From Strigamia acuminata (lineage: Eukaryota > Arthropoda > Chilopoda > Geophilomorpha > Linotaeniidae), in the NCBI GenBank assembly GCA_949358305.1, contig OX442316.1, forward strand, positions 310,001-374,000: a stretch of DNA of 64,000 bases, written 5' to 3'. Made by a program: the position numbers and the translations under genes. Positions 19,111 through 51,539 of the stretch are shown in pieces; position 1 is the first letter of the stretch, and each line of letters starts with the position of its first letter. The notes beneath the pieces were generated by a model. The model was not told the DNA's origin and searched no databases. It worked only from the letters and a program-made list of their open reading frames with translations.

Positions 19111-19114
19111 ACTT
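19111..19114. repeat. Target-site duplication ACTT, left copy, BEL/Pao element 1
   Basis: Satellite reading GTTGACTT is interrupted by the LTR start TGTTGC. The same ACTT follows the other LTR end at 28534-28537, where the satellite resumes as ACTTAGCAC. A 4-bp duplication suits the BEL/Pao superfamily. Confidence 0.93.
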
Positions 19115-20675
19115 TGTTGCAGGTCAACAAGACAGATAGAAAGGAATGGCGATGCGTATCCAAATTCAAGACACTTGAGCTCGCCCAAGGTCGTATGGCG
19201 TGGCTAGTACGAAAATCGCACTGGGGAGCAATAAATCCGCAACAAATGGCATTGTTGTACCGCTGGAACAATGTGGAGAACACCTGCACCAAGTATCCAA
19301 TAGGTGGCGGAAACATAAGTTGGCCTGAGAATTTTTAAACTACTCACTACACATTGAATGTGTTTGAAAATAAACCTAAAACAAGAGCTAATAAAACACA
19401 ACACATTTATTCAAAGGTTGGTTAATAACTGAAGAAATTACAGCAATTAGATTGGTTCTTAGAGAACCGCACATGCGCAGTACCGAATATGGCACGCGCC
19501 AGGCCGATAGCGGCGAAATACAGATACACGAAAGATTCCGTTACCATGGTAACGGAGGAAACAAGATTACGGCAAAGTTGGCATTTGCTTAAAAATGCAC
19601 TAAAAATACATTGAATTACATTGAAATGACCACAAGAATGCGGTGAACAAAAAAGCTAATCACAACAATGTCCAAAAACACGTTAAACAATGAGATATTT
19701 GCAATAAACCGATCTCGGAAAGAAAGGATTGACGATAGCCAATCACAGGCCAGGAAAATTACATAACGATCACATTTGAATTTCGATCTGTACAAAAGCA
19801 CAAAATTATCAAAGAATACATACTGAATAATAACGCAATGTAATAGTAAATGCAAATTATGTGATATAAAATACAAAAATAACGGTTACATTGTGTAATC
19901 GTCGCTTGGGACAAACATGGCGACCGGCGAACATAACAAAGGTGTTGGATCAAACATGGCGTCCGGCGAACATAACATCGGCGGCAAAACTACACGTAAA
20001 ATGAATGTAAAAACACTAAATGTAAATAATCAATAAAGTATCGATTAAATTATAAGAATAATTATCAATTCTCTTCACAAAACATCGGAATAAAATACAC
20101 AGATTGAATAAATACGAATTTATCGGCCAAACGAACATTCCCGGCTGCGCTTTTATGGCAGACGGAAACGAACGTTCAAACCAATCAAACGGAACTTCCA
20201 AAGCAGTTTTGATGCATCTAGATAGAAAGAGCATGCTTGAATTAGTCTAAACGAATGCTTAATAAAATTCCAAGGGATTTGAAAAGTACTAAACAAAAGG
20301 TTAGAAGACGGAACCGTAACTTTACGGGAAACAGAAAAATGACGTCACTAGCATCGCAAATGTATGCTAGGGAACGAAAATTGCACCAAAACAGTTCGGA
20401 ATCAACACAAACTCTCAAAAAACAAGTGAATAAGTCAATAAATGCACGGAATAAGATATTTGAAATCAATACAAAGCATAAACACTACTAAATATTGAAA
20501 AGTATGAATAAAAATCAAGTCAAAACACTTTAATAAGCAATAAAAATCTGAAAAGTGAAAAAATACCAATTAGGCAAAGGAAATTAAAACACTTAAAGAT
20601 TTTAATCAACTCAAAGTAAATGGTAAAAATATTGACAATAAAATAGCACAACAATTTCTACGCTGTCTTGCAACA
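19115..20675 (-). repeat. 3' LTR of BEL/Pao element 1
   Basis: This 1561-bp LTR has the same sequence as 26973-28533 apart from three visible substitutions. In sense (minus) order it shows two CGCCATGTTT-containing repeats (19977-19951 and 19938-19912), the palindrome GTTACCATGGTAAC (19540-19553), a TGCGCATGTGC-type NRF1-like motif (19469-19480), the inverted repeat GGTTCT/AGAACC (19454-19468) and an AATAAA poly(A) signal (19406-19411). Short open frames inside it are not conserved as proteins and are treated as chance. Confidence 0.95.
19406..19411 (-). terminator. Poly(A) signal AATAAA in 3' LTR, element 1
   Basis: AATAAA on the minus strand lies downstream of the promoter-like motifs of the LTR. 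Element 2 has AATAAA at the matching place (40751-40756). This makes it the likely cleavage and polyadenylation signal that ends the R region. Confidence 0.6.
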
Positions 20676-20735
20676 GCGAATTGCCGGCGAGAGGACAGAG
20701 ATGGAGAACCACGCAAAAAATCACAAAAAAAAAAA
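20676..20735 (-). other. Short 3' untranslated segment between pol stop and 3' LTR, element 1
   Basis: The 60 bases between the stop codon and the LTR should hold the polypurine tract. Read in sense, they are T-rich and then pyrimidine-rich, ending CTCTCGCCGGCAATTCGC directly before the LTR. No purine tract is present. Element 2 has the same ending, so this is conserved rather than a mutation. Confidence 0.75.
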
Positions 20736-23700
20736 TCACTCAAGTTCTAGGGCTCTCACATGCTTGACTGACCTTTTCAACTCACGTCCATCGGGTAGCA
20801 CAACTTTTATCACACGGATTTGACCATCCTCACCGGGAAAAATTTCTTTTATCCTGGCAAGTGGCCAAAAATATGGGTTAGTACCCATTTTTTCTAGAAG
20901 CACTATTTGGTCTACTTTAGGGTTTTTGAAGAACTTATCACCTTTGGATTCATAAAAATTCCTCAATTGCATGAGGTAACTCTTTTTCCAAATTTTCCAG
21001 AACTCCCAAATAAATTGGCGTCGTTTAATGTCCAGTTTTCTCAAATCGGATTTTTTAATTGCACTCAATTGTTTGTTTATTACGTATTTAGGCATACCTC
21101 CGGTTAGAAAGTTTTCAGGTGCCAAAATTCTACCACCATCAACACTGTCGGGGACATAAGATAAAGGTCGTGAATTTAGCACTGAACTAATTTCCAGAGC
21201 CAAAGTTTGGAGAGTTTCTAAGTCTACGGTGCTGCGCAACAATGTCTTTCGAAGTTTATCTTTTACTGAGCGGACTAGACGTTCCCACGCTCCGCCCATC
21301 CATGGAGACAGCGGTGGGATGAATGTCCATAGCACCCTTTTTTCAGATAGGAATGTTTTCACATCTTTATGACCGATGAGTTTTCCCCACGATTGTAATT
21401 CGAGGCTTCCGCGCTCAAACGTCTTACTGTTGTCAGAGAAAATCTTCCCGGGGTATCCATAGCGTGCCCCAAATCTTCTCATTGCAAGCAAAAACTTTGG
21501 CACAGAAAGGTCCTCTGATACTTCTAAATGTATGGAACGGGTCACCATACACGTAAAAAGCAAGATATATACTTTTTTCTTTTCTTTCTTGTTGCTGCCG
21601 ACATAAATGGGACCCAAGTGGTCAACTCCGGTGTTTTGAAATGGCGCCGCTGGTGTCACACGTTCAGCAGGAAGGTCACCCGTTGAAGGGTTGTTGCGTG
21701 CAAGTTTTCCTCGTCGGCAAATCTCACATTCTCGAATAACTGTTTGTATAGTTCTTCGTCCTCTAATAATCCAAAATCGTTCGCGTAGGTGATACAAAGT
21801 TTCGCTTATGTCACCGTGAAGCAACTCCAAATGCACTTTTTTAATTAACAGTCTTGTTATCCAACTATCATAATGCAAAATAATTGGATACACTTCATCA
21901 AATGTCAATAAAGATTTTTTCAAGCGGCTACGAAGTCGAAGTAATCCGTCCTCGTCAATGAAGAGCTCGAAATTGCGTAGGGTGGAGTGTTTAGACAGTT
22001 TTCTTTTGTTTTTCACATCATCAATCTCCTCAGAAAAATGTAATTTCTGAGAAAACTGCAGGATCTTCAATTGGTTGTCCTCTAACTCGAGTGGCGAGAG
22101 AGGCTCACCGCGCAAAAGTTTGTTTTTCCATCGCAAAATGTATGAGAAAACTCTCAAAAGTCGGTTGTAATTTCGGAATCGTTTGAAGAATCGACCAATA
22201 AAGCTTTCTGTCACTTGAATTGTCATCACAACGATTTTTCGTTCTTCTTCTGGAAGATCCTCTTGTATAATTTCTCTTTCTTCCAGTTTCGAGACATCAA
22301 CTCCAAACCACCAAAGTTTATTGTTCATCAATGTTTTTGAGTTATGTGGTCGAGTTAATAAATCTGCTGGGTTAAATTCCGTTGGTACATGAGACCATTG
22401 TTTGGGTTTGGTTGAAGAAGTAATTTCTTGCACACGGTTCGAGACGTATGGCTTCCACACGTTTTTGTCACTATTTATCCATGCTAAAGTTATGGTGGAG
22501 TCCGAGTAGTATCGCACTTCAGTGACTGGGTACCCGGGAAGAAAGTTTTCTAACAGGTACTTGGTCATCCTAACTCCAACCACTGCTGCAGTTAATTCAA
22601 GTCGAGGAAGAGTCACTTTTTTCGTCGGCGCAATACGACATTTACTCAACAATAAAGTTCTTTTGCCCTCCAGATTGACGACAAAAATTGAACAGCCAAA
22701 TGCCTTTGTGCTTGCGTCACAGAAAACTTCTAAAGTGATGTCTTGACCGGAATAAGTCTGCAGCCAACGTTGTACTTTCAATTCTTTCAATTTTTGTATG
22801 TCTTGACTCCATTCTTCGACTTCTTTTTTCTCTGAGTCAAGAATCTTTTCATCCCAGTTTTTTGTTCTAATCCAGATTGCTTGAACTAGCAGTTTCATTT
22901 GAAGCACAACAGGAGCAATGAGTCCCATTGGATCGAATATGGAAGCCATTAATGAAACAACTTCTCGCTTTGTATTCGGAATTTTTTTAATTGTCGGAAT
23001 GTTAAACATCATGACATCTTCTGCCGTGTTCCACAATATTCCAAGCATTTTTATAATTCCTAAGTCCGAAAACTCCTCTCCTCGCATATGAAAACCTTCT
23101 TTTTTCAAATTGTTGAAGACGTCCTTGCTTGAGGTCGCCCACTTCACGAGGGGAAGCTTTCCGTCGTCTAATATCATTTTCAGTTTCTCGCAATGTGATG
23201 TTGTGTCGGCTGTAAAATCTCCTCCTGACGTCAAATCATCCATGAAGATTCCATCATCGAGTGCGTCGACTTCTTTTGCATGAGTTTCTTCAAATGGTTT
23301 CGCTTGTTTCCTAATCGTCGCACACAAGAGGAATGGAGAAGAAATGACGCCAAATGGCACGACAATCATTCGCAGAACCATTAGATTATTCCACAAATTT
23401 TGCCAGGAGTATGGCTCTTTGAAATAGTCACGAGCGACCCACAAAAAACGTAAAAAGTTTGTTTGAGTTGGGTTGATCATAACCTGGAGAAACGCTTGCT
23501 TAATGTCTGCTATTATTGGAATACAATAGAGACGGAATCTCACAATAACGAGAATTAAGTCTGGGTTGAGGGAAGGTCCCGGAAATAGACAGTCATTGAG
23601 GGAAAGTTTCCCCTTCTTGGATGAAGACGCGTTGAACACTACTCGAAATTTCGTCGTGTCTCGATCCTCCTTGATTACAGGATGGTGAGGTATATTGTAT

Positions 23701-25976
23701 GTTCCTTTCTTCAGAAAACGCTCTTCTTTTGGGACTTCCTCCGCGTGATTTTCGTGAATATACTGCCACATGGACTCGTCGTAACGTTTTTTGTAATCCT
23801 CGTTGGCATCTATTCTTTTGAGCGTGTTAGCCAGTTGGTTCATGGCCAACTCCCAATTGGATTCCAAGTCGACTTCCTGTCCATTGAATGGAAGCACGAC
23901 TTCATAACGTCCATCGTCTAGACGCTTCGTAGTTGATTCGAATCGATCGCGAATAAAGTCGGATTCTTTTTCTCCCGCGTTTATTCCGATTGCTTCCAAG
24001 TTCCACAGCTTGTCCAATTTTTCTTGGATGTCTAAGTCGCATGTATTGCAACATGTTGTCAATTCTTCCTCATCTTCGAATAAATTGGTGTTCCCCGCCG
24101 CTCCGGACAAGACCCAACCAAAAATTGTATTTATTAATCCAAGATCTGCGTTTACTTTTTTCTTGCCGTCCTTAACGACCTTCCACCACACGTCGACTCC
24201 TAAAAGCACATCGATTTGAGAAGTCTTAGCTGGTAGGTCTTCAGCAAGTTCAAGGTTTAACTTCTTCACCTTGTCTATTATTGATGAGTTAAGAATGCCC
24301 TGCACTCGTGGCAAATTTTCCACAGAAAGCATTGAAAGTTTCAAATCTTGAGTGTCATTTTTACTCTGCAGTGTGACATTAAACACATCATAGTCCGTGG
24401 CTGCTGGAGACGAGTCGTTGAATCTCTGTGTGGTGGCAGAGACACTGCCGCATTTTTTCAGTTTCAGTCTTTCAACAAATTCTTTTGTGATGAACGATCG
24501 ATGGCTTCCCGGATCAATCATCCCTCGAATGCTGTGAGTTCCTCCTGATTTTGTTTTGAGGTCCGCGGTGAATATCATTAGTTGTAGAGTCGTCGAGATT
24601 GCGCATGAAACATGTGTTGTTACTTGTGGCTCCTTCGGCTTCTCCGCAGCGCTCGTTGAATTCTTCACCTCGGATTTTTTGCATATTGTGGAGTGGTGTC
24701 GCCCACCACAATGTTTACAAGAAAATTTGACCTTGCAGTCTCCCACTCTATGTCCAGTTCGGAAACAGTTAAAACACAGTCTGTTTTTCTTTACTATTTC
24801 GATTTTCGCGTTGATTTCGAAATCCTTTTTACAAGAGCCGTTTAAATGTTCTTCATCACAAAAAATGCACTTGCTTGTCCTTGAAGGCGCACTCTTGCTG
24901 TCAGATTTCGTTTCATTCTTTGTTTTGGCACTAGTAGACTGCTTGGCGTCTTGAGTAGCTGCGCACGTGGTCATTGAACCTTTCACTTTCGGTTTCTCCA
25001 CTTCAGATTTTTCATTCTTGTCTTTTTTCGATTTTTCAGAAACGCTTTCAGTTCGTTCGGCCATCGCAACTTCATTCACAAAGAAATTGAGCAACGTAAC
25101 AATGTTCTTATTTTGTATTCCGTGAACCTGGTAAAATCTTAATGCCATTGAAGTTGGAAACTTGCTAATTATGTCGGGCAATAAGAAAGCTCCGGAAGTC
25201 TGAATAGGAATTTTAAGCTGCTCTAAAAGTCTAATAGTCGCAGAAATCTTGGTCAAGTTTGTTTTTATCGATTTTGTTGGATAAATACTCGAAACCACTT
25301 TTAATTCTCGAATTGATTTTATTAACGCAGTTTGTTGTGCATCCTCATCACCAAAATGTCTTTCGAGTTCTTCTCTTGCAAGGTCATAGGATTCCTCGAT
25401 CAGGGGAAAAGTTGAGATGAGAATCGCCGCTTCTCCAGTACACATAGTTTGTAAATACTGGAGTTTTTCAATGTTACTCAGGTCTGGATCCTTGTGTACG
25501 GAGGTCTCAAAGTTGCTTTTGAATGTTCTGTACTTCAAAATATCTCCGTCGAATTTTACGGAATCCAGTTTGGGCAGCTTCGAATTTTTTCTAAACGTTG
25601 CTGTCGCGTTCAAGGTTGTATTCTGGTTTGAGCTTGTCGACGTATTTAATCTTCCTCCCAAAGTTGGAAGTGATCGCTTTGAAATTTCGTATCTCGTGCG
25701 AAGAAGATCCACTCTTGCTTGCATAGTCTCAAGCTTGTCAATGCATTCTAGATAATAGCCGTGGTCCGAATATTCCTGTAGATCATTCAGCGCACCGACT
25801 ATTCTCGTTTCTTTTGGGTTCGCAGTTTGAACCAGCGCTTCCAGTTCACCTGGATCTGCTGTCTTCTCCGATATAGACAACAAATGATTCATTGCAGTGA
25901 TTTGCGATTCCCAACGTTGTTGTTGCACTTCGATTTGATCCTCAGTTAGAAGATCTCTCATTGTAGGTTCCGCCAT
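20736..25976 (-). CDS. gag-pol: Gag-Pol polyprotein, BEL/Pao element 1
   Basis: One intact frame of 1746 residues encodes the whole replication machinery. The ATG at 25976 has a good context (AAAATGG). Residues 1-330 are Gag-like (DUF1759 type, with a KLPKL...F-G-D block near 133-146). Zinc knuckles are at C370/C373/H377/C382, C401/C404/H409/C414 and C420/C423/H428/C432. The protease site is IDPG (D488) rather than the usual D-T/S-G. Reverse transcriptase shows motif A ADIKQAF (D824) and FMDD (911-914). RNase H has D1087, E1127 and D1159. Integrase has the HHCC finger H1382/H1387/C1417/C1420 and catalytic D1452, D1515 and E1565, followed by a DUF5641-like C-terminus ending near residue 1743. 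Gag and Pol are fused with no frameshift, as is common in BEL/Pao; processing is presumably by the internal protease. It resembles the element 2 protein throughout, least in the first 130 residues. Nothing in the frame suggests it is dead. Confidence 0.96.
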   Translation of the reverse strand: MAEPTMRDLLTEDQIEVQQQRWESQITAMNHLLSISEKTADPGELEALVQTANPKETRIVGALNDLQEYSDHGYYLECIDKLETMQARVDLLRTRYEISKRSLPTLGGRLNTSTSSNQNTTLNATATFRKNSKLPKLDSVKFDGDILKYRTFKSNFETSVHKDPDLSNIEKLQYLQTMCTGEAAILISTFPLIEESYDLAREELERHFGDEDAQQTALIKSIRELKVVSSIYPTKSIKTNLTKISATIRLLEQLKIPIQTSGAFLLPDIISKFPTSMALRFYQVHGIQNKNIVTLLNFFVNEVAMAERTESVSEKSKKDKNEKSEVEKPKVKGSMTTCAATQDAKQSTSAKTKNETKSDSKSAPSRTSKCIFCDEEHLNGSCKKDFEINAKIEIVKKNRLCFNCFRTGHRVGDCKVKFSCKHCGGRHHSTICKKSEVKNSTSAAEKPKEPQVTTHVSCAISTTLQLMIFTADLKTKSGGTHSIRGMIDPGSHRSFITKEFVERLKLKKCGSVSATTQRFNDSSPAATDYDVFNVTLQSKNDTQDLKLSMLSVENLPRVQGILNSSIIDKVKKLNLELAEDLPAKTSQIDVLLGVDVWWKVVKDGKKKVNADLGLINTIFGWVLSGAAGNTNLFEDEEELTTCCNTCDLDIQEKLDKLWNLEAIGINAGEKESDFIRDRFESTTKRLDDGRYEVVLPFNGQEVDLESNWELAMNQLANTLKRIDANEDYKKRYDESMWQYIHENHAEEVPKEERFLKKGTYNIPHHPVIKEDRDTTKFRVVFNASSSKKGKLSLNDCLFPGPSLNPDLILVIVRFRLYCIPIIADIKQAFLQVMINPTQTNFLRFLWVARDYFKEPYSWQNLWNNLMVLRMIVVPFGVISSPFLLCATIRKQAKPFEETHAKEVDALDDGIFMDDLTSGGDFTADTTSHCEKLKMILDDGKLPLVKWATSSKDVFNNLKKEGFHMRGEEFSDLGIIKMLGILWNTAEDVMMFNIPTIKKIPNTKREVVSLMASIFDPMGLIAPVVLQMKLLVQAIWIRTKNWDEKILDSEKKEVEEWSQDIQKLKELKVQRWLQTYSGQDITLEVFCDASTKAFGCSIFVVNLEGKRTLLLSKCRIAPTKKVTLPRLELTAAVVGVRMTKYLLENFLPGYPVTEVRYYSDSTITLAWINSDKNVWKPYVSNRVQEITSSTKPKQWSHVPTEFNPADLLTRPHNSKTLMNNKLWWFGVDVSKLEEREIIQEDLPEEERKIVVMTIQVTESFIGRFFKRFRNYNRLLRVFSYILRWKNKLLRGEPLSPLELEDNQLKILQFSQKLHFSEEIDDVKNKRKLSKHSTLRNFELFIDEDGLLRLRSRLKKSLLTFDEVYPIILHYDSWITRLLIKKVHLELLHGDISETLYHLRERFWIIRGRRTIQTVIRECEICRRGKLARNNPSTGDLPAERVTPAAPFQNTGVDHLGPIYVGSNKKEKKKVYILLFTCMVTRSIHLEVSEDLSVPKFLLAMRRFGARYGYPGKIFSDNSKTFERGSLELQSWGKLIGHKDVKTFLSEKRVLWTFIPPLSPWMGGAWERLVRSVKDKLRKTLLRSTVDLETLQTLALEISSVLNSRPLSYVPDSVDGGRILAPENFLTGGMPKYVINKQLSAIKKSDLRKLDIKRRQFIWEFWKIWKKSYLMQLRNFYESKGDKFFKNPKVDQIVLLEKMGTNPYFWPLARIKEIFPGEDGQIRVIKVVLPDGRELKRSVKHVRALELE

Positions 25977-26054
25977 TTTCTCTGTCCTCTCTCACAAAAA
26001 ATTCGGCTGTGAAATTTGGAAAGAACAGATAAAAACGGGCATGACAATTCAACT

Positions 26055-26192
26055 TTGTTTTAATTTTTAAGAGAATAAACCTTTTTATTTTATCCCCCAA
26101 AAATATCTCAATATTCACGGTTTTTGTTTTAACTTTAAAGAGAATAAACTTTTTAATTTTATCCCCCAAAAAGCACTCAATTTTCACGGTCC
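26055..26192 (-). repeat. Two 69-bp tandem repeats in the leader of element 1
   Basis: GAGAATAAAC and ATCCCCCAAAAA recur 69 bp apart (26071/26140 and 26092/26161). In sense each unit carries TTTTTGGGGGAT followed by a TTTATTCTCTT block. Element 2 has one copy of the same G5 motif just before its gag (around 41838), so the duplication is specific to element 1. Confidence 0.8.
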
Positions 26193-26211
26193 TTGGTGAC
26201 ACGTGAGAATT

Positions 26212-27174
26212 TTAGAATATCAAATGTTTGGCCAATCGAGGATGACCAAAAATTTGAGCGGTTTTTGTGTACGTAAATAAAACGTGACACAATATTCTGC
26301 ACAGTTTGAAAATAATTGACGGTTCGTTTTGCAACAAAGCACGCCAATAAACTCTTTTGAAAACAATTGACGGTTCGTTTTGCAACAAAACACGCCAATA
26401 ACTCCTAACATTAAATTTTGACTCTACTGACAGCTTATTCAACTTGAAACTAGTCAGTTCTACTCGAAATAAATCTAATCTCCCCCGCTTATGGCGGTTA
26501 TAGTGGAGAACTAAGCATGCAATGAAAAAACACTTCAAAAGTTGTAAAATAGACACTTTATCGAAATTTTCCCGAAAACCAACAAATGCAACTACCAAAA
26601 TCCCATAAAGACACTTGATACAGTTCCCCTTAATAACCAAAATCTCCAAAATTTCAATTTCATAAGGCAAAACACTGTAAAATGCAATTATTCCAGGGGC
26701 GAATCCGCTTTCCAACACGACGCGTTGTGTTATCCAGTGTTGTGACCTTGAACTCCAACTGCATGCACACTTTTGTTCGTTTTCGCCGCCAAAGAAGTCC
26801 CCGTCGTAACTTCTGTCACGTTGAACGTTGACTCTTGACATGGGTGACGAAACACGAACGTATTGTTCCTCCGTCGCACCAAACACTTTTTCAAACGTAT
26901 TGATGATGCACTGGAAAAACTCACGAATTGCAGACGGAATCCTGGTCACGGCTACCAAAGGCTTCGTATCTGTGTTGCAGGTCAACAAGACAGATAGAAA
27001 GGAATGGCGATGCGTATCCAAATTCAAGACACTTGAGCTCGCCCAAGGTCGTATGGCGTGGCTAGTACGAAAATCGCACTGGAGAGCAATAAATCCGCAA
27101 CAAATGGCATTGTTGTACCGCTGGAACAATGTGGAGAACACCTGCACCAAGTATCCAATAGGTGGCGGAAACAT
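26212..27174 (-). CDS. Leader ORF spanning 5' LTR, primer site and leader, element 1 (hypothetical)
   Basis: This frame of 320 codons has an ATG at 27174. It starts inside the 5' LTR (about 67 codons), reads through the LTR end and putative primer site, and ends before gag. I recognise no domain. Its middle part matches the leader ORF of element 2 (40900-41751) in the same frame: VTRI-SA-RE, YVRVSS, a GD pair, ITQR-VL and FAPG-IAF. Nucleotides there differ mostly without breaking the frame. A 51-bp in-frame tandem duplication (26305-26406) adds 17 residues. It may be a small accessory protein, an upstream regulatory ORF, or a chance frame in a conserved leader RNA. Conservation favours some function but does not prove translation. 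Confidence 0.4.
   Translation of the reverse strand: MFPPPIGYLVQVFSTLFQRYNNAICCGFIALQCDFRTSHAIRPWASSSVLNLDTHRHSFLSVLLTCNTDTKPLVAVTRIPSAIREFFQCIINTFEKVFGATEEQYVRVSSPMSRVNVQRDRSYDGDFFGGENEQKCACSWSSRSQHWITQRVVLESGFAPGIIAFYSVLPYEIEILEILVIKGNCIKCLYGILVVAFVGFRENFDKVSILQLLKCFFIACLVLHYNRHKRGRLDLFRVELTSFKLNKLSVESKFNVRSYWRVLLQNEPSIVFKRVYWRALLQNEPSIIFKLCRILCHVLFTYTKTAQIFGHPRLAKHLIF
26305..26406 (-). repeat. Two 51-bp tandem repeats, in frame with the leader ORF
   Basis: TTTGAAAA-AATTGACGG and GCAACAAA-CACGCCAATAA recur exactly 51 bp (17 codons) apart, as 26305-26355 and 26356-26406. The period keeps the leader reading frame open. Confidence 0.85.
26939..26957 (-). promoter_or_regulatory. Candidate primer-binding site, element 1
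   Basis: In sense the site reads TGGTAGCCGTGACCAGGAT, 15 nt from the 5' LTR end. Element 2 has TGGTGCACGTGACCAGGAT at the same 15-nt spacing (41066-41084). A TGG start and a long conserved tail fit a tRNA 3' end, but I could not assign the tRNA. The 15-nt gap is longer than usual. Confidence 0.5.
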
Positions 27175-27397
27175 AAGTTGGCCTGAGAATTTTTAAACTA
27201 CTCACTACACATTGAATGTGTTTGAAAATAAACCTAAAACAAGAGCTAATAAAACACAACACATTTATTCAAAGGTTGGTTAATAACTGAAGAAATTACA
27301 GCAATTAGATTGGTTCTTAGAGAACCGCACATGCGCAGTACCGAATATGGCACGCGCCAGGCCGATAGCGGCGAAATACAGATACACGAAAGATTCC

Positions 27398-27411
27398 GTT
27401 ACCATGGTAAC
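27398..27411. promoter_or_regulatory. RFX X-box-like palindrome in 5' LTR, element 1
   Basis: GTTACCATGGTAAC is a perfect 14-bp palindrome matching the X-box pattern bound by RFX transcription factors (GTNRCC...RGYAAC). The matching position of element 2 holds GTTGCTATGACAAC (40609-40622), so the half-sites are kept while other bases changed. Binding is inferred from the motif. Confidence 0.55.
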
Positions 27412-27769
27412 GGAGGAAACAAGATTACGGCAAAGTTGGCATTTGCTTAAAAATGCACTAAAAATACATTGAATTACATTGAAATGACCACAAGAATGCG
27501 GTGAACAAAAAAGCTAATCACAACAATGTCCAAAAACACGTTAAACAATGAGATATTTGCAATAAACCGATCTCGGAAAGAAAGGATTGACGATAGCCAA
27601 TCACAGGCCAGGAAAATTACATAACGATCACATTTGAATTTCGATCTGTACAAAAGCACAAAATTATCAAAGAATACATACTGAATAATAACGCAATGTA
27701 ATAGTAAATGCAAATTATGTGATATAAAATACAAAAATAACGGTTACATTGTGTAATCGTCGCTTGGGA

Positions 27770-27835
27770 CAAACATGGCGACCGGCGAACATAACAAAGG
27801 TGTTGGATCAAACATGGCGTCCGGCGAACATAACA
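27770..27835 (-). promoter_or_regulatory. Paired CGCCATGTTT (YY1-like) repeats in 5' LTR, element 1
   Basis: Two 27-bp repeats, 39 bp apart start to start, each contain CGCCATGTTT in sense, which fits the YY1/Pho core GCCATNTT. Sense upstream of each core is TGTTATGTTCGCCGG. Element 2 has the same pair at the same 39-bp spacing (40190-40250). YY1-type sites often lie at transcription starts, so this may mark the LTR start site. Confidence 0.5.
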
Positions 27836-28533
27836 TCGGCGGCAAAACTACATGTAAAATGAATGTAAAAACACTAAATGTAAATAATCAATAAAGTATC
27901 GATTAAATTATAAGAATAATTATCAATTCTCTTCACAAAACATCGGAATAAAATACACAGATTGAATAAATACGAATTTATCGGCCAAACGAACATTCCC
28001 GGCTGCGCTTTTATGGCAGACGGAAACAAACGTTCAAACCAATCAAACGGAACTTCCAAAGCAGTTTTGATGCATCTAGATAGAAAGAGCATGCTTGAAT
28101 TAGTCTAAACGAATGCTTAATAAAATTCCAAGGGATTTGAAAAGTACTAAACAAAAGGTTAGAAGACGGAACCGTAACTTTACGGGAAACAGAAAAATGA
28201 CGTCACTAGCATCGCAAATGTATGCTAGGGAACGAAAATTGCACCAAAACAGTTCGGAATCAACACAAACTCTCAAAAAACAAGTGAATAAGTCAATAAA
28301 TGCACGGAATAAGATATTTGAAATCAATACAAAGCATAAACACTACTAAATATTGAAAAGTATGAATAAAAATCAAGTCAAAACACTTTAATAAGCAATA
28401 AAAATCTGAAAAGTGAAAAAATACCAATTAGGCAAAGGAAATTAAAACACTTAAAGATTTTAATCAACTCAAAGTAAATGGTAAAAATATTGACAATAAA
28501 ATAGCACAACAATTTCTACGCTGTCTTGCAACA

Positions 28534-28537
28534 ACTT
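28534..28537. repeat. Target-site duplication ACTT, right copy, element 1
   Basis: ACTT directly follows the LTR end GCAACA and continues as AGCACAAACACC, the normal satellite sequence. It matches 19111-19114. Confidence 0.93.
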
Positions 28538-34818: not shown

Positions 34819-34866
34819 GTCTCTGAATGTTCAGAAATAGTGTTTAAACCTTAGTAGAAGCCTTCA

Positions 34867-41751: not shown

Positions 41752-41959
41752 TTGTCAAAACACTCGATATTCTTGTGCATTTTCAATTGATTTTTTGTCA
41801 TTTGGGCAATTAAACGTTGAAAAATTCTGTGTATTTTTGGGGGATAAAATTGAAAATTTTATTCTTTTAAAAAATTGAAAGCGAAGTGTTTTTTGTCAAA
41901 CGAGATTTTATCTTCCTTTTCGAAATTTGCAGCCGTGAATTTGTGAGAGGAGAGAAAAC

Positions 41960-44900
41960 ATGGCAGATCCTTCCGTGCAAAACATGATCACTCCAGAACA
42001 ACTCGAAATTTTGGAAACAAAATGGGAAGCGCTACTCACTTCACTCTCCGCTTTGCTGACTGTATCGGAGCAGACCAGTGACCCGGGAGAGTTGGAGGCG
42101 CTGCTATCTACAGCAAATATTCGAGAGACACGTGCTGTCAATGAACTCAATGATCTTCAAATACATTCTGAACATGGATTTTATCTTGAAGCCATTGAAA
42201 AACTCGAGGCAGTTCAAACAAGAGTGGATCTTCTCCGCAGACGTTGGGAAGTATCGAAACGGTCCCTTCCTACACTGGGAGGACGACTAAATATGTCAAC
42301 TGCATCTGGCGGTCATACGACAATGAATGCTTCTTTCCGAAAAATCCAGAAATTGCCAAAATTGGAGTCTGTGAAGTTCGATGGGGACATTTTGAAGTAC
42401 AAGACCTTCAAAAGTAACTTCGAAACTTCAGTTCATAAGGACCCAGACTTAAGCGATGTGGAAAAGCTTCAATATCTACAAACAATGTGTGTTGGCGAAG
42501 CAGCCACTTTGATTTCAACTTTTCCCTTGATCGAGGAATCATACCATTTGGCTCGTGAAGAGTTGGAGAGGAACTACGGGGATGAGGACGCACAGCAAAC
42601 TGCCCTCATCAGATCAATTAGAGAAATGAAAATTGTTACGAGTGTCTATCCAACTAAAGCGTTAAGAACAAATTTAACCAAAATTTCTTCCACCGTCAGA
42701 CTCCTTGAGCAATTGAAAATACCAATACAAACTTCAGGTGCTTTTCTCATGCCGGATATTATCAGCAAATTTCCAACTCAGATGGCATTGCGTTTTTATC
42801 AGGTGCATGGAATTCAAAACAAAAACATTATGACACTACTTGACTTTTTCTTGAAAGAAGTAGCTATGGCGGAAAGAACTGACAATTCTTCTCATTCTGA
42901 AAAGGTGAAGAAGGAGAAAACTGAAGTCGAGAAAGGCAAGCAAAAGGGTTCCATGACCACGTGTGCTGCGACTCAAGATTCTAAGCCGCAATCAAATGCT
43001 AAAGTGAAGTCCGGAGAGTCCAAACAAGACAACAAATCTTCCAACTCGAAGACCATCAAGTGTATTTTTTGTGAAGAAGACCATTTGAATGGTTCATGCA
43101 AAAAGGAATTCGAAGTTAATGCGAAGATTGAAATCATCAAAAAGAATAGACTTTGCTTCAATTGTTTTAGAACTGGCCATCGCGTCGGGGACTGTAAAGT
43201 GAAGTTTTCCTGCAAACATTGTGGCGGAAGACACCACTCCACAATTTGCAAAAAGTCAGATGTGAAGAATTCATCAAGCGTTGTCGAGAAGCCCAAGGAG
43301 TCACAAGTGACAACACACGTCTCGTGCACGATCTCCGCGACTCTTCAATTAATGATATTTACTGCGAACCTCAAAACCAAAAATGGAGGATCCCACAACA
43401 TCAGAGGAATGATAGATCCAGGCAGTCACCGATCCTTCATAACTACTGAGTTAGTAGAAAGAATCAAGTTGAAAAAATGCGGCAGCATTTCGGCCACGAC
43501 ACAACGCTTTAATGATTCTACTCCTGCTTCAACGGATTATGACGTTTTTAACGTTACTTTGAAAAGCAGAAATGACACGCAAGAAATCAAAATGACAATG
43601 TTATCGGTCGAGAATCTACCAAGAGTGCAAGGAATTTTAAACTCCACTGTAATAGAAAAGGTGAAAGGATTAAATCTTGAGTTGGCTGAAGAATTACCTG
43701 CCAAAACATCCCAAATTGACATTTTATTAGGAGTGGATGTTTGGTGGAAAATTCTGAAAGACGGCAAGAGGAAAATCAACGAGGATTTGGGCCTTATAAA
43801 CACTTTATTTGGCTGGGTTCTCACCGGTGCAGCTGGAAACATCGATTTGTTTGATGATGAAGCCGACTTAACCACGTGTTGCAACACTTGCAACGTTGAC
43901 ATAAATGAGAAGTTGGACAAATTGTGGAATTTGGAGGCAATTGGTATAAATGCTGGTGAAAAAGAATCCGATTTCACAAGAGATCGCTTTGAAGCCACAA
44001 CGAAACGTCTTGACGACGGAAGATATGAAGTGATGCTTCCCTTTAATGGACAAGAAACTGACTTAGATTCCAACTGGGAACTCGCCATGAACCAATTAGC
44101 CAACACGCTTAAACGAATCGATGCAAATGAGGACTATAAAAAACGATACGACGACTCGATGTGGCAGTACATCGAGGAAAATCACGCGGAGGAAGTCCCA
44201 AAGGAGGAACGTTTTCTCAAGAAGGGGATATATAATATACCTCACCACCCCGTCATAAAAGAGGATCGTGATACTTCTAAATTTAGAATAGTATTTAACG
44301 CGTCTTCATCCAAGAAGGGAAAACTTTCCCTCAATGACTGTTTATTTCCGGGACCTTCCCTCAACCCTGACTTAATTCTTGTTATTGTGAGATTTCGCCT
44401 CTATTGCATCCCGATAATAGCGGATATCAAGCAGGCATTTCTGCAGGTTATGATCAACCCGACTCAAAGAAACTTTTTACGCTTTCTGTGGGTGGCTCGT
44501 GATTATTTTAAGCAGCCTTATTCGTGGCAAAACCTGTGGAACAATATTATGATCCTGAGAATGATCGTCGTGCCCTTTGGTGTTATTTCCTCACCATTCC
44601 TCCTATGCGCAACCATTCGAAAACATGCAAAACAATTCGAGAAAACACACGCAAAAGAAGTTGATGCGCTTGATGATGGAATTTTTATGGATGACTTAAC
44701 ATCTGGAGGAGATTTTCCAGCCGACACGACGACACATTGCGAGAGATTAAAAATGATTTTAGACAGCGGAAAACTTCCCCTTGTGAAGTGGGCGACTTGC
44801 AGTAAAGACGTCTTCGAGAACTTGAAAAAAGAGGGATTCCACATGCGGGGCGAGGAATTTTCTAGTCTTGGAATCATTAAAATGCTCGGCATACTGTGGG

Positions 44901-47194
44901 ACACAGAAAAAGACATGATAATGTTTAAAATGCCGAAAATTGAAAAAATTCCGATTACGAAGCGAGAAGTTGTCTCATTTTTAGCATCAATTTTCGATCC
45001 CATGGGACTCTTGGCTCCTGTGATTCTGCAAATGAAATTGCTCATTCAAGCGATCTGGGCTCGGACGAAAAAATGGGATGAAAAGATTCTTGATTCAGAG
45101 AAAAAAGAAATTGAAGAATGGAATTCCGACATCCAACAACTCAAGGAACTAAAAGTTCAACGTTGGTTAAACACTTATTCAGGTCAGGAAATAACCCTTG
45201 AAGTTTTTTGCGACGCCAGCACAAAAGCATTTGGCTGCACGATTTTTGTCGTCAACGTGGAGGGCAAAAGAACATTGTTGTTAAGTAAATGCCGCATTGC
45301 GCCGGCCAAAAAAGTTACTCTTCCTCGACTCGAATTAACAGCAGCAGTGGTTGGAGTCAGAATGACAAAATATCTGCTCGAGAACTTTCTTCCTGGATAC
45401 CCCGTCACTGAAGTTCGTTACTACTCGGACTCCACTATCACACTCGCCTGGATTAATTCAGACAAAAATGTTTGGAAACCGTATGTCTCAAACCGTGTTC
45501 AGGAAATTGTTTCCTTTTCCAAGCCTGAGCAATGGTCTCATGTGCCAACCGAATTCAACCCAGCTGACCTATTGACCCGTCCACACAACTCAAAAACATT
45601 GATGAACAATAAACTTTGGTGGGACGGTGTTGATGTATCAAAACTGGAAAAGAAAGAAGTTATACAGGAAAACCCACCCGATGAAGAGAGAAAATTAATT
45701 GTTATGACTATTCAAGTAAAAGAGAATTTTATTTACAAATTTTTCCGACGTTTTAGCAATTACAATCGACTTTTGAGAGTGTTTTCCTACATAATGAGAT
45801 GGAAAAGTCAACTTGTTCGCGGTGAGCCCCTCTCGCCACTCGAGTTGGAGGCAAACCAACTGAAGATCCTAAAACTTTCGCAGAAATTGCATTTTTTGGA
45901 GGAAGTTGAGGATGTGAAAAACAAAAAGGAATTAAGCAAACATTCCACTTTAAAGAATTTTGAGCTCTTTATTGACGAAAACGGATTACTGAGACTTCGA
46001 AGCCGTTTGAAAAAATCTTTGTTGACATTTGATGAAGTCTATCCCATTATTTTGCATTACGATAGTTGGATAACACGACTGTTGATCAGAAAAGCACATC
46101 TAGAACTACTTCACGGTGATATTAGTGAAACCCTTTATCACTTACGTGAACAATTTTGGATCATAAGAGGAAGAAAAACAATTCAGACAGTGATTCGAGA
46201 GTGTGCAATTTGCAGACGTGCTAAACTTGCGAGAAATAACCCTTCTACTGGTGACCTTCCCACTGAACGCGTAACTCCAGCGGCTCCATTCCAACACACT
46301 GGAATTGATCATCTTGGACCCATTTATGTTGGCAACAACAAAAAGGAACGAAAAAAGGTTTATATTCTTTTATTCACGTGCATGGTGACAAGAAGCTTGC
46401 ACTTAGAAGTGTCCGAAGATCTTTCTGTTCCCAAGTTTTTGTTAGCAATGCGACGATTTGGAGCTCGTTTTGGCTATCCTGCCAAAATATTCTCAGATAA
46501 TAGCAAAACATTCGAACGTGGTAGTGTGGAGTTACAATCATGGGGCAAGCTCATTGGTCACAAGGACATACAGACTTTCCTATCTGAAAAAAGAGTGTTA
46601 TGGACTTTTATTCCACCACTGTCCCCCTGGATGGGAGGGGCATGGGAACGCCTTGTCCGTTCAGTTAAAGATAAACTTCGAAAAACTTTGCTTCGATATA
46701 CCGTTGATTTGGAGACTCTTCAAACCTTAGCTTTGGAAATTAGTTCCGTATTAAATTCAAGACCTTTATCCTACGTTCCCGACAGTGTTGATGGAGGCAG
46801 AATTTTGGCGCCTGAAAATTTTTTAACCGGTGGTTTACCAAAATACCTTATAAACAAAAAATTGAGTGCCATCAAAAAGACGGATTTAAGAAAATTAGAC
46901 ATTAAACGCAGACAGTTCATTTGGGAATTTTGGAGAGTGTGGAGAAAAAGTTACCTTATGCAATTGCGAAATTTTTATGAAACCAAAGGCGATAGAAATT
47001 TCAAAAGTCCCAAAGTGAATCAGATTGTGTTGTTAGAAAAAATAGGAACAAATCCCTATTTTTGGCCACTTGCCCGGATAAAGGAGATTTTTCCAGGTGA
47101 GGATGGTTTTACTCGAGTCATTAAAGTAGTGCTACCAGATGGACGTGAACTGAAAAGATCAGTTAAGCATGTGAGAGCTCTTGAACTGGACTGA
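41960..47194 (+). CDS. gag-pol: Gag-Pol polyprotein, BEL/Pao element 2
   Basis: One intact frame of 1744 residues starts at an ATG in a strong context (AACATGG). Landmarks sit two residues earlier than in element 1. Zinc knuckles are at C368/C371/H375/C380, C399/C402/H407/C412 and C418-C430. The protease-like IDPG has D486. Reverse transcriptase has ADIKQAF (D822) and FMDD (909-912). RNase H has D1085, E1125 and D1157. The integrase HHCC finger is at H1380/H1385/C1415/C1418, with catalytic D1450, D1513 and E1563 and 49 residues between the last two. The C-terminal 60 residues form the DUF5641-like module. Agreement with element 1 is very high from the knuckles to the end and lower in residues 1-130. 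No stop or frameshift is seen, so the element looks autonomous. Confidence 0.96.
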   Translation: MADPSVQNMITPEQLEILETKWEALLTSLSALLTVSEQTSDPGELEALLSTANIRETRAVNELNDLQIHSEHGFYLEAIEKLEAVQTRVDLLRRRWEVSKRSLPTLGGRLNMSTASGGHTTMNASFRKIQKLPKLESVKFDGDILKYKTFKSNFETSVHKDPDLSDVEKLQYLQTMCVGEAATLISTFPLIEESYHLAREELERNYGDEDAQQTALIRSIREMKIVTSVYPTKALRTNLTKISSTVRLLEQLKIPIQTSGAFLMPDIISKFPTQMALRFYQVHGIQNKNIMTLLDFFLKEVAMAERTDNSSHSEKVKKEKTEVEKGKQKGSMTTCAATQDSKPQSNAKVKSGESKQDNKSSNSKTIKCIFCEEDHLNGSCKKEFEVNAKIEIIKKNRLCFNCFRTGHRVGDCKVKFSCKHCGGRHHSTICKKSDVKNSSSVVEKPKESQVTTHVSCTISATLQLMIFTANLKTKNGGSHNIRGMIDPGSHRSFITTELVERIKLKKCGSISATTQRFNDSTPASTDYDVFNVTLKSRNDTQEIKMTMLSVENLPRVQGILNSTVIEKVKGLNLELAEELPAKTSQIDILLGVDVWWKILKDGKRKINEDLGLINTLFGWVLTGAAGNIDLFDDEADLTTCCNTCNVDINEKLDKLWNLEAIGINAGEKESDFTRDRFEATTKRLDDGRYEVMLPFNGQETDLDSNWELAMNQLANTLKRIDANEDYKKRYDDSMWQYIEENHAEEVPKEERFLKKGIYNIPHHPVIKEDRDTSKFRIVFNASSSKKGKLSLNDCLFPGPSLNPDLILVIVRFRLYCIPIIADIKQAFLQVMINPTQRNFLRFLWVARDYFKQPYSWQNLWNNIMILRMIVVPFGVISSPFLLCATIRKHAKQFEKTHAKEVDALDDGIFMDDLTSGGDFPADTTTHCERLKMILDSGKLPLVKWATCSKDVFENLKKEGFHMRGEEFSSLGIIKMLGILWDTEKDMIMFKMPKIEKIPITKREVVSFLASIFDPMGLLAPVILQMKLLIQAIWARTKKWDEKILDSEKKEIEEWNSDIQQLKELKVQRWLNTYSGQEITLEVFCDASTKAFGCTIFVVNVEGKRTLLLSKCRIAPAKKVTLPRLELTAAVVGVRMTKYLLENFLPGYPVTEVRYYSDSTITLAWINSDKNVWKPYVSNRVQEIVSFSKPEQWSHVPTEFNPADLLTRPHNSKTLMNNKLWWDGVDVSKLEKKEVIQENPPDEERKLIVMTIQVKENFIYKFFRRFSNYNRLLRVFSYIMRWKSQLVRGEPLSPLELEANQLKILKLSQKLHFLEEVEDVKNKKELSKHSTLKNFELFIDENGLLRLRSRLKKSLLTFDEVYPIILHYDSWITRLLIRKAHLELLHGDISETLYHLREQFWIIRGRKTIQTVIRECAICRRAKLARNNPSTGDLPTERVTPAAPFQHTGIDHLGPIYVGNNKKERKKVYILLFTCMVTRSLHLEVSEDLSVPKFLLAMRRFGARFGYPAKIFSDNSKTFERGSVELQSWGKLIGHKDIQTFLSEKRVLWTFIPPLSPWMGGAWERLVRSVKDKLRKTLLRYTVDLETLQTLALEISSVLNSRPLSYVPDSVDGGRILAPENFLTGGLPKYLINKKLSAIKKTDLRKLDIKRRQFIWEFWRVWRKSYLMQLRNFYETKGDRNFKSPKVNQIVLLEKIGTNPYFWPLARIKEIFPGEDGFTRVIKVVLPDGRELKRSVKHVRALELD

Positions 47195-47247
47195 TTTGTT
47201 TGAGCTCGTTGTGTTTTCTCTTCTCTGTTCTCTCGCCGGCAATTCGC
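47195..47247 (+). other. 3' untranslated segment before the 3' LTR, element 2
   Basis: These 53 bases are pyrimidine-rich (TTTTCTCTTCTCTGTTCTCT) and end in CGCCGGCAATTCGC next to the LTR. No polypurine tract is visible. The last 18 bases match element 1 exactly. Confidence 0.75.
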
Positions 47248-50200
47248 TGTTGCAAGACAGCGTGGAAGAATTGTTGTGCTGAGATTGTTTCAATAAATAT
47301 TACTAATTGCTTTTATTTGTTTAATTTTCCTTTAGTGTTTTATTTTTCATAATTAATTGATATTTTTCACTTTACAGGAATTTTGACTTATTAAAATGTT
47401 TTTCACTGATTTTTATTGTCACTTTTCGATTTAATGTAGTGTTAATACCTTGCTATTATTTTATTCGTGTCTTTTTGAGTGCATTTATGAACCTTTCTAT
47501 TAATTTTCCCTGATTTTGTGTTTATTGCGTGCAGTTCTAATGTTTTCTTCGTTTTCTGGCATACATTTGCGATGCTCGATACGTCATTTTTCGGTTCCTA
47601 GCGGACTTTTGCTTCCATCTTCTAACCTTTCGTTTTGTGCTTTAGAATTCATTTGGATTTCTTTTTACATTTGTTTCTGACTAATTCAAGTCTGTTCTTT
47701 CTTTCTGGATGCATTAGAACTGCCCAAAATGCTTCGATCGGTTGTTTCTAACGTTCGTTGTCGGCTGCCGTAAAAGCGTAGCCGAGAATGTTCGGTTCGT
47801 TCAACATTTTCGTATTTATTAAACTTGTGTGTATTCTTTCAGTATTTTGTGATAAGAATTAATAATTATTCTTGTATTTTATTCGATACTTTATTTGTTA
47901 TTTACATTAAGTGCTTTATATTCCAATTCCGAATTGTTTTGACGCTTTTGCAATGTTCGCCGGACGCCATGTTTGATCCAATACCTTTGTTATGTTCGCC
48001 GGTCGCCATGTTTGTCCCAAGCGACGATTACACAATGTAACCGTTATTTTTGTATTTTTTATTCTTATAATCTGCATTTACTATTTCATTTCGAAGTGTT
48101 TTCACCTGTATTCTTTGCTATTTTTGCATTTTTATTCCGTTCGGAATTCAAATGTTTTGATTGCATCATTTTGCTTGACGCTGATTGGCTGTCTCGATCG
48201 TCTGCTTGACGATCATTGTTTTCGTTCCGTTTGCACTGTTTTACTTTTCTGATCTTATTGTTGTGATTAGATTAAATATTCCTGGTATTCTTGTGATCAT
48301 TTTAGTGTATCACAATCGTTAATTCGTGCAGTTTTTATGTAACTACAACTTTGCTGTGATTTCGTTTCCTCCGTTGCTATGACAACGGAGTTTCTTTTGT
48401 ATCTGTATTTCGCCGCTATCGGCTTGGCGCGTGCCGTATTGGGTACTGCGCATGTGCGGTTCCTCAGGAACCAATGTAATCAGTGTATTTTCTTCAGTTC
48501 TCAACCAACTTTTTAATAAACAAGTTGTTTTTTGTTAACTCCCGTGTTTTCTATTTTCAACCTTAGTTTTCAATGTGTTGTGAGTAGTTAAGCCTTTCCC
48601 TGGATTAGCCATTGATTCAGCACTCCATTGGATATTAATCAACGGTGTTCCCATCAATAGGGGGTTTCATTATATGAATGATTTTGCAATTTTGTGATTT
48701 TGCATTAATCACAAAATCATTATTTTTTGATGCCTCCAAAAATGAGTTTACATTGAATTAACCCAGTCAATTTTGCAATTGTGTGATCTGGACGATTTTG
48801 TGATTTTTGAGTATTGTCATGTGATATCTGTTCTACCAATCACATTCACATTCACTAAAGCACAAAAGAGTAAAAACACAAAATCCCAAAAACATCTAAA
48901 AGGTAGTTTTTGTGATTTTGATAAGAAGTGATTTTGAGGCTTGTGAAACTCAAAACAAAATGGAGGCATCCAAGCTCTATCTAAGTGGCTAACTTGTATC
49001 CTTGTATATCATCAAAATGCTGATGCATCCATGACTGTATAACAGCTAGGAAACTCAATACTTCGATTCGGGTAAAAAAAAGTACCGATTCAGGGCGATT
49101 CAGGGCGATTTTAGCGGGTGCCCGAATGGAAATTCAGGCGGAAATGTTCGTCGCGTATCGTTTTTTATTGTTTTCTATGTCAAGATGAGCTCGGAAAATT
49201 ATGGAACCAAGCTCATTTTGAAGAGGAGACAATTCTGCACAAGCCTGTATTTTTTACTTTTTGATTCGGGCGAGGAAAAGTGCCGATTCGGGCCATCTTA
49301 GCGGGGGACCGAATGGGAAAATTTGGAAATTTGGTGCAGAATTTGGATTCGAGATTCGACCATGACAAAACCAAAAATTCGTAAAATTAACCGAATGAAA
49401 TGTTTAAAACAGGTTTCCAGAGAAGAAAATTCCGCTGAAAACGATGGTACAGATAACTTTTTGATCGGATTAACCGTTGATTTTAAATTTTGGAAAAAAC
49501 GATCTTTTTTGGGTTGATTTATAAGAAAAAGTTGGAAAAAGTGGTTGAATAATAAAGGAGGACAAAATAGCAGGTTGCAGTGGTTTGGGCCAAAATTGAA
49601 TTGGCTGGATTGGCGTTGGGTTTGGGTTAACTTTTGGGTTTGATTGTGTTTGGGTATTGGCCAGATTGGCATTGGTTTTAGTTTGGTGTGGTTTGGGTTT
49701 GGGTTGCATTATTATGGGTTTGGTTTAGTTTTGCAAAAATTTATTTTATGATTTGGTTGTATACATTTGTCTGATCTATGGCTTTGGCTTTGTGGGTGAA
49801 CAGCTAGTATTTATTAAAATGCACCTTATTAAAAAATATTTTGTTCCATCACACAAATAAGAACTAGTTTTTTTGCATCACATTTTAAAATTGGTTGGAT
49901 ATAACTATAACCTAATATGGTGGATAGGAAGTCACGTGACTATTTAAATAATTGCAAAATTGCAAAATTATGAGATTGTTTTTGAAACTAATTATTAATC
50001 ACAATTTGTGATGGCCACTTGGATTGAGTTTGGCTGCTGCCATCTTTTCCAAAATAGCAAAACTACCTTTGATTTTGTGATTGTGTATTTTTTCTGTTTT
50101 GTGTTTTTGCAATTATGCACATGATTGGTGGAACTGATATCATGTGACAAATCCAAAAGTGCAAAATTGCTAAAGTTGCAAAATTACAAAATTGCTTCAT

Positions 50201-50373
50201 TAATGAAACCCCCTATTGTTCCATGCATTCAACAATAGTTTTCAGTGCGGATTTGTGTTCTCAGCGCGGTTTTCGTACGAATTTAACAATACGATCACTT
50301 GAGTTTTTAGAAGCGGGAAATTCAAATAGCCCCGACCCCATTCATAGCTGTTTGGTGTTGACAGACCGCAACA
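47248..50373 (+). repeat. 3' LTR of element 2, interrupted by a DNA transposon
   Basis: The LTR copy occupies 47248-48658 and 50218-50373, with a 1559-bp interruption (1556-bp element plus 3 bp). The offset to the 5' LTR is exactly 7764 before the insert. Motifs are repeated here at 47954-48014 (CGCCATGTTT pair), 48373-48386 (X-box-like) and 48515-48520 (AATAAA). The insert lies after the poly(A) signal, in U5, so it may not prevent 3' end formation. Confidence 0.93.
48659..50214. mobile_element. Non-autonomous DNA transposon with long imperfect terminal inverted repeats
   Basis: This 1556-bp insert has ends AGGGGGTTTCATTA and TAATGAAACCCCCT. Inverted similarity reaches about 300 bp inward, for example TGATATCTGTTCTACCAATCA near the left against its diverged complement near 50131-50151. 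Removing it plus 3 bp restores the intact LTR sequence CATCAATGTTCC. The flanking triplets are AAT and ATT, so either a 3-bp duplication has mutated or the ends pair further. The interior is low-complexity, with repeated GATTCGGG/GGGCGATT and TGGGTTTGGTTT runs, and contains no transposase. A 3-bp duplication and G-rich ends would suit PIF/Harbinger, but I am not sure of the superfamily. Confidence 0.8.
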
Positions 50374-50377
50374 ACTT
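50374..50377. repeat. Target-site duplication ACTT, right copy, element 2
   Basis: ACTT follows the LTR end GCAACA and continues into AGCACAAACACC satellite. It matches 39480-39483. Confidence 0.93.
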
Positions 50378-51082
50378 AGCACAAACACCACAAGACCAAT
50401 GTCTCTGAATGTTCAGAAATAGTGTTTAAACCTTAGTAGAAGGCTCCAATGTAAGTTTTAGAAACATCCAACCAATGATTTGGGAGAATAGACTTTTGAT
50501 CTCATCACAGTTGACTTAGCACAAACACCACAAGACCAATGTCTCTGAATGTTCAGAAATAGTGTTTAAACCTTAGTAGAAGGCTCCAATGTAAGTTTTA
50601 GAAACATCCAACCAATGATTTGGGAGAATAGACTTTTGATCTCATCACAGTTGACTTAGCACAAACACCACAAGACCAATGTCTCTGAATGTTCAGAAAT
50701 AGTGTTTAAACCTTAGTAGAAGGCTCCAATGTAAGTTTTAGAAACATCCAACCAATGATTTGGGAGAATAGACTTTGATCTCATCACAGTTGACTTAGCA
50801 CAAACACCACAAGACCAATGTCTCTGAATGTTCAGAAATAGTGTTTAAACCTTAGTAGAAGGCTCCAATGTAAGTTTTAGAAACATCCAACCAATGATTT
50901 GGGAGAATAGACTTTTGATCTCATCACAGTTGACTTAGCACAAACACCACAAGACCAATGTCTCTGAATGTTCAGAAATAGTGTTTAAACCTTAGTAGAA
51001 GCCTTCAATATAAGTTTTAGCAACACCCAAGCAATAAAATTTGAAAAAAAAATTTTGAGCTTATTTCACATCGCAGTTGACT
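50374..51082. repeat. Satellite array C
   Basis: About five monomers of the same satellite lie between BEL/Pao element 2 and the Gypsy element. The last is a 147-bp type cut at CGCAGTTGACT by the Gypsy LTR. No gene is present. Confidence 0.96.
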
Positions 51083-51539
51083 TGTGACGGTTACACTGTC
51101 AAACACTTTGTTAATATAGGACGAACATTTCACCGATAGATGGCGCTGGTACGTTTTAGCGGTAATTTCAAATTTCGACAATTTTTGAGTGAATAAAATA
51201 TAAATTACTATTTATATTTTATTCCACTGCAACTTTATACACTTTTAAATACTTTTGGATGTTTAAATACTAGTTGATTTATTTGTCACATAATTCTATT
51301 GAATTATGTGCAAACTCTACACCTGGTGAAGTCACCCCCCATCACCCACTGTGAGTTGGACTCCTTTTGGATTATAGTCAAAGGGACTTAATCCAAAATG
51401 TGTCCTGCGTATCCAGTTCCTGTAGTGGACCTAGTAGAAGACTATGTCCTGAGTATCCACTTCCTATGATCTGGGATTGGATGGATTTGACTGCCCGGTG
51501 ATCCCATTGGATCACTGAACAGCTATTCTCCTCACCGAG

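Follow-up and report, generated by a model that had tools for sequence, protein, structure and literature searches.

RIRE7, a Ty3/Gypsy element of rice, is reportedly inserted preferentially into the TrsD tandem repeat of pericentromeric heterochromatin. Another rice element, the Ty1/copia retrotransposon Tos17, has a palindromic target that is quoted in PMC6911290 as ANGTT-TSD-AACNT (TSD, target site duplication). For nested plant LTR retrotransposons, excerpts of the same paper describe a weak palindrome preference and a higher predicted nucleosome occupancy at the targets (PMC6911290), and the plant CRM centromeric retrotransposons accumulate with satellite arrays, according to excerpts of PMC3059260. 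On the targeting of BEL/Pao elements the literature, at the level of titles and abstracts, holds little, and no junction map of the kind presented here was found at that level, in a search that covered few subscription journals; the map given here is a testable one.

The stretch of DNA analysed here (the window, 64,000 nucleotides) is C4:310001-374000, C4 being contig OX442316.1, and the genome searched comprises 237.5 Mb in 157 contigs. The window carries a satellite with monomers of two lengths, type A of 140 bp (154 of 211) and type B of 147 bp (57 of 211), which is interrupted by three LTR retrotransposons, El1, El2 and El3. One 25-mer of this satellite has 33,559 exact copies genome-wide, and an Rfam search of the window gave no match. 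With tens of thousands of near-identical monomers, the site choice of an integrase becomes readable at single-base resolution from one assembly.

Three insertions in the window

The features of the window are the following:

1..19114, forward strand: satellite array of A and B monomers; the final ACTT (19111-19114) is the left TSD of El1
19115..28533, pol on the reverse strand: El1, BEL/Pao; LTRs of 1561 bp (19115-20675 and 26973-28533) with 3 mismatches
28534..39483, forward strand: satellite array; ACTT at 28534-28537 is the right TSD of El1, ACTT at 39480-39483 the left TSD of El2
39484..50373, forward strand: El2, BEL/Pao of a subfamily other than that of El1; 5' LTR of 1567 bp (39484-41050); LTR pair with 2 mismatches
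50374..51082, forward strand: satellite array of few monomers; ACTT at 50374-50377 is the right TSD of El2, GACT at 51079-51082 the left TSD of El3
51083..64000, forward strand, and on to C4:375058 outside the window: El3, Ty3/Gypsy; LTRs of 1590 bp with 0 mismatches

The three junctions are confirmed as real. With a slash at the boundary, the satellite breaks after 19114 at El1 (GTTGACTT/TGTTGCAGG), after 39483 at El2 (GTTGACTT/TGTTGCAAG) and after 51082 at El3 (GTTGACT/TGTGACGG). The right junctions read GCAACA/ACTTAGCAC for both El1 and El2 and CGTCACA/GACTTAGCAC for El3, which ends at C4:375058 and is followed by its right TSD, GACT, at C4:375059-375062. A preliminary description of this DNA had claimed that three LTR elements break the satellite at the same point (19114, 39483 and 51082/51083), that the BEL/Pao pair has identical ACTT duplications, and that the Gypsy site is 1 bp off the BEL/Pao site. 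All of this is borne out by the junctions and TSDs, since ACTT was read on both sides of El1 and of El2, and the GACT of El3 lies one base upstream. The LTR pairs are nearly identical (differences at 3 of 1561, 2 of 1567 and 0 of 1590 bases, respectively), from which it follows that the three elements are young, separate insertions. On a uniform 140-bp target, two further insertions would fall within 1 bp of the first with a probability of about (3/140)^2 = 4.6e-4.

TSDs of BEL/Pao elements are short, 4-6 bp. El1 and El2 are assigned to this superfamily by PF05380 (Pao-type peptidase A17), PF03564 (DUF1759) and PF18701 (DUF5641), found above cut-off in one pol frame of each, and also by paired TG...CA LTRs and the short TSD ACTT. 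They lie on opposite strands, and are 91% identical in their integrase pieces and about 76% in their LTRs. Those relatives of the El2 integrase piece that bear a name come from animals; examples are several Lepidoptera, Trichinella (38% identity) and the centipede Strigamia, at 47% across 58% of the query. The 3' LTR of El2 runs from 47248 to 50373 and is split by a 1.56-kb insert (window 48659-50216), which is about 99% like an element at C4:291149, in opposite orientation.

The pol of El3 has the Ty3/Gypsy arrangement (RVT_1, RT_RNaseH, Integrase_H2C2, rve), its 5' LTR spans 51083-52672 and its 3' LTR starts at 63469. After pol there is a third open frame (window 61157-62812, 551 aa) with no Pfam match at E 0.001. 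GACT precedes both LTRs of this element: at 51079-51082 it is the satellite TSD, and at 63465-63468 the end of a purine-rich stretch, GGGGGACT.

Insertion sites over the monomer

Positions in the monomer are numbered with the G of GTTGACTT as position 1. Junctions were collected genome-wide by searching for satellite anchors that have TGTTGCR, the kind of LTR end seen in El1 and El2, no more than 30 bases after them. As anchors had to be exact, the scans cover neither junctions that have diverged nor TGTTTC ends or LTRs of other types; every TGTTGCR end is presumably BEL/Pao. Nested double matches were dropped before counting. The five scans gave:

Right scan, positions -19 to 11: 100 matches, 98 kept (two nested dropped); ACTT 29, GCAC 12, CAGT-type 10
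Left scan, positions 1 to 31: 98 kept (two nested dropped) from the 100 listed of 137 matches, in contig order with later contigs absent; among matches listed, CAAA-type 25, ACTT 19, GCAC-type 13, AGAC-type 12
Right scan, positions 20 to 50: 45 matches; TCTC 18, AGAC-type 15
Left scan, positions 67 to 97: 38 matches, 37 kept (one nested dropped); AAGG-type 12
Left scan, positions 94 to 124: 47 matches; TGGG-type 11, GACT-type 10, AAGC 7

Reversed-pattern controls gave 0 matches in each of the five scans. Rows from one contig and strand that had the same site and end letter and lay no more than 100 kb apart may be co-amplified copies; they were merged, and the collapsed maxima were then 27 of 88 (ACTT, right scan of -19 to 11), 20 of 85 (left scan of 1 to 31), 16 of 40 (right scan of 20 to 50) and 11 of 33 (left scan of 67 to 97). 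The observed chi-square was reached by 0 of 20,000 uniform simulations in each of these four scans, and left and right scans agree with a Pearson coefficient of 0.97 on positions 1-11 and again on 20-31. A strongly non-uniform placement of TGTTGC-type insertions over the monomer is thus supported.

Of the 124 positions mapped (51-66 lie outside the map), 72 have no events, and 60% of the averaged events fall on the ten highest; the number of effective sites is about 21. GTTG/ACTT, at position 5, has the highest averaged count genome-wide (21.5; collapsed left-scan count, 16), both figures leaving out C4:8967707, a TAAC rather than an ACTT junction. The share of ACTT is about 10.6% of events, slightly high with C4:8967707 counted in. 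Also hot are CAAA (position 13), TCTC (position 33), AGAC (position 24), AAGG, CAGT and GCAC, the first three being nearly equal to ACTT. The check that had been proposed, plotting junctions per monomer, has thus largely been run: the distribution is far from flat, but it has many peaks and not one, and of the supposed hotspot at a single base there stands the top rank of ACTT, while its uniqueness does not. A single-base hotspot is ruled out by this map. Two random TGTTGC-type insertions would share a base in about 4.8% of cases under the map vs 0.7% under uniform placement. Once the map is known, it is unremarkable that one window has two BEL/Pao elements at ACTT, and the preference itself becomes the result.

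ACTT right junctions are found on 13 contigs, and ACTT sites carry at least three LTR end types, those of El1, of El2 and of C4:536721, whose end has no BLAST match to the El1/El2 ends. Nine element-sized left-right pairs (1.5-10.9 kb), El1 and El2 included, have ACTT on both sides; two longer ACTT pairs, of 17.8 and 34.0 kb, may be wrong pairings. All three window insertions come after a type B monomer. A preference for type B is ruled out, with 4 of 19 ACTT left junctions after type B among the matches listed vs 57 of the 211 monomers in the window (Fisher test, P = 1, with 5 of 19 used, the TAAC row of C4:8967707 being counted as B).

Within C4:120001-384000 the satellite is interrupted 12 times; seven interruptions read as LTR insertions, and the other five are elements with terminal inverted repeats. 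The TSDs of the seven are GTTG, CAAA, CAGT, GAAG, ACTT, ACTT and GACT, starting at monomer positions 1, 13, 139, 70, 5, 5 and 4. An arc of 15 bp thus takes in six of the seven, a tightness matched by 83 of 200,000 uniform simulations in a post hoc comparison that includes the three window sites. As one start is at 70, this is a cluster plus an outlier rather than one base; the insertions at positions 1 and 70, C4:143458 and C4:294245, are oppositely oriented members of one family.

Some further details were noticed on C4. Four near-identical elements of 421-422 bp with AGGGGTTTCAT inverted ends (C4:138888-139309, 166565-166985, 170240-170661 and 177134-177555; loci L049, L046 and L045) share their satellite point and flanks and are most likely one co-amplified insertion. 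A different element, of 1557 bp (C4:291149-292705, L033), has ends similar to AGGGGTTTCAT and lies between the same flanks. A 901-bp element with CACTGGAAAA inverted ends (C4:549250-550150; L007, L008) breaks the satellite at AGACC, near an LTR hot site. Finally, the 38-kb interruption at C4:252121-290206 is composite; its ends are LTR-like, its TSD is CAGT, and further El1/El2-family U3 ends lie inside it, at C4:267747 and 284903.

Distribution of the two families

The U3 end common to El1 and El2 was searched with a flank letter chosen to avoid internal copies, two of which still passed, and it occurs at 147 places genome-wide, 100 of them listed. Among these 100, the 20 on C1 are all confined to 64.28-66.72 Mb (on that contig the satellite 25-mer has its first listed exact match at 64.59 Mb), 12 of the 13 on C4 lie within the first 0.73 Mb, and none is on C2 or C3. 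Of 56 flanks read, 36 are satellite, 18 non-satellite and two internal; with the last left out, the proportion in satellite is 36 of 54. The satellite flanks fall on the sites of the map (position 5 six times, -1 six times, 13 four times and 24 three times), and at position 5 the family is found in both orientations. The listed BEL/Pao U3 ends are therefore concentrated in satellite-bearing segments, by targeting or by selective retention.

No such concentration was found for the Gypsy family of El3, for which the exact 22-mer of the U3 start, a probe that misses diverged copies, occurs at 16 places, that is eight pairs or copies, genome-wide. These are scattered over C1 (25.9M), C3 (5.5M, 9.1M, 14.8M and 17.0M), C4 (361k, El3), C6 (11.3M) and C8 (4.6M), and El3 is the only one of the eight seen in satellite, flanks having been read for El3 alone. 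Consequently, the Gypsy part of the pattern amounts to one event, and a hotspot shared by the two superfamilies is unsupported. Of the earlier claim that two superfamilies and both orientations meet at one hotspot, the opposite orientation of El1 and El2 holds and the Gypsy half is unsupported. The chance of one Gypsy event within 1 bp of ACTT is about 3 in 140, and the position of El3 at GACT beside ACTT is probably a coincidence.

The 22-mer replaced a scan for TGTGACG, which was discarded as a Gypsy junction test: 99 of the 100 matches listed (990 in total) have the length of the CTGTGACGTCAAATG satellite variant, which itself contains TGTGACG, and only C4:375052 (El3, position 4) differs. 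The CTGTGACGTCAAATG variant is common on C3 at about 15.64 Mb and on C5 at about 12.45-13.87 Mb.

Origin of the preference

The contribution of the target sequence was estimated with a symmetric half-site matrix of six positions, trained on part of the monomer, which ranks the held-out part with Spearman coefficients of 0.34 and 0.41 (0.39 and 0.47 on square roots; jackknife, 0.41). Six was the best among six widths tried, all of which gave coefficients of 0.18-0.47, and positions 7-10 from the TSD centre gave no signal. In a base-composition test the permutation counts were 1370 of 20,000 with event weights, which is borderline, and 211 of 20,000 with square roots. Outside the satellite, 17 distinct flanks fit the half-site mildly, a fit reached by 301 of 4000 letter shuffles. 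The matrix ranks ACTT 20th among 124 positions and TGGG 51st; sequence alone thus fails to account for the height of either. YR-N4-YR as a full rule is ruled out, because ACTT and GCAC each conform to just one half of the pattern and two YR sites, at -10 and 47, are without insertions.

On balance, the main cause is probably the accumulation of BEL/Pao elements in the satellite together with an integrase site preference within the monomer. A young BEL/Pao group would build up in satellite domains, and its integrases would pick 4-bp targets by a weak, roughly symmetric preference for sequence or bendability that extends some 6 bp from the TSD centre in each direction, with a half-site tendency of G, T, pyrimidine, purine and then the TSD. 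Tens of thousands of near-identical monomers present the same target over and over, which would turn such a weak preference into a constant comb of favoured bases headed by GTTG/ACTT. An occasional meeting of two BEL/Pao copies at ACTT would then be expected, and the Gypsy element at GACT would most likely be luck. The integrase would be the chooser, nucleosome wrapping perhaps adding to the choice.

A more novel reading, possible but doubtful, is that a BEL/Pao lineage has taken this one satellite as its niche, its complex being directed to the arrays and integrating, in each nucleosome-sized monomer, at a fixed set of bases that are exposed or pliable and spaced about 10 bp. If so, the satellite would be a natural integration-site assay.

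The main rival, which seems rather unlikely, is that chromatin does the choosing: a nucleosome-sized monomer would be wrapped in a fixed phase, and its exposed grooves, about 10 bp apart, would be attacked by integration complexes, whether or not these are tethered to a satellite-bound protein. Monomers of 140 and 147 bp would suit such wrapping, peak heights are left unexplained by sequence, and the peaks at 112, 122, 133, 145 (=5), 153 (=13), 164 (=24) and 173 (=33) are 8-12 bp apart, and among periods of 4-30 bp the best was 10.2 bp. This periodicity is suggestive only and not significant, as permutation gives 1290 of 20,000 for periods of 10.0-10.7 bp, 2579 for 9.5-11.5 bp and 14,800 for any period; moreover, strong peaks (139 and 10) stand off the comb, and the phase is a predicted one.

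Under co-amplification, a few insertions would have been multiplied along with the satellite and the shared sites would be copies. Series of this appearance do exist, at C9:946646-1009414 (GCAC), C11:281785-293163 (GTCT) and C40 (GCTC), but the peaks survive collapsing, and for El1 and El2 the idea is contradicted by their different LTRs and strands and their young LTR pairs. The preliminary description had already argued against it, from the two superfamilies and both orientations. As a general account it is very improbable and fails, because right junctions at ACTT occur on 13 contigs, one family is found there in either orientation, no fewer than three types of LTR end are represented, and there are nine element-sized ACTT-ACTT pairs. 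Chance or an assembly artefact behind all three junctions is equally remote, since chance is adequate for the single Gypsy event alone, uniform placement is excluded for TGTTGC-type ends, and the TSDs are perfect, the LTR pairs near-identical and the satellite continuous on both sides.

The three-element coincidence thus splits into a real preference and, probably, one bystander; most likely it is two parts preference and one part luck.

Comparison with known systems

Among the systems mentioned at the outset, RIRE7 with TrsD, as far as the title of its report goes, resembles the BEL/Pao elements described here as an LTR retrotransposon favouring a tandem repeat; RIRE7 is a plant Gypsy element, whereas here the element is BEL/Pao, the host probably an animal and the map at base level. 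CRM elements, in excerpts of PMC3059260, share the accumulation alongside satellite arrays. Tos17, as quoted in PMC6911290, likewise prefers flanks that are symmetric about the TSD and has GT in its half-site, although it has a 5-bp TSD and belongs to another superfamily, and the BEL/Pao preference is weaker and derived mainly from one repeated target. The nested plant LTR elements, in excerpts of the same source, are alike in their weak palindrome preference, which was, however, averaged across many targets without a fixed satellite base (PMC6911290). The BEL/Pao preference is real and of an ordinary kind, and what is unusual is the resolution at which it can be seen.
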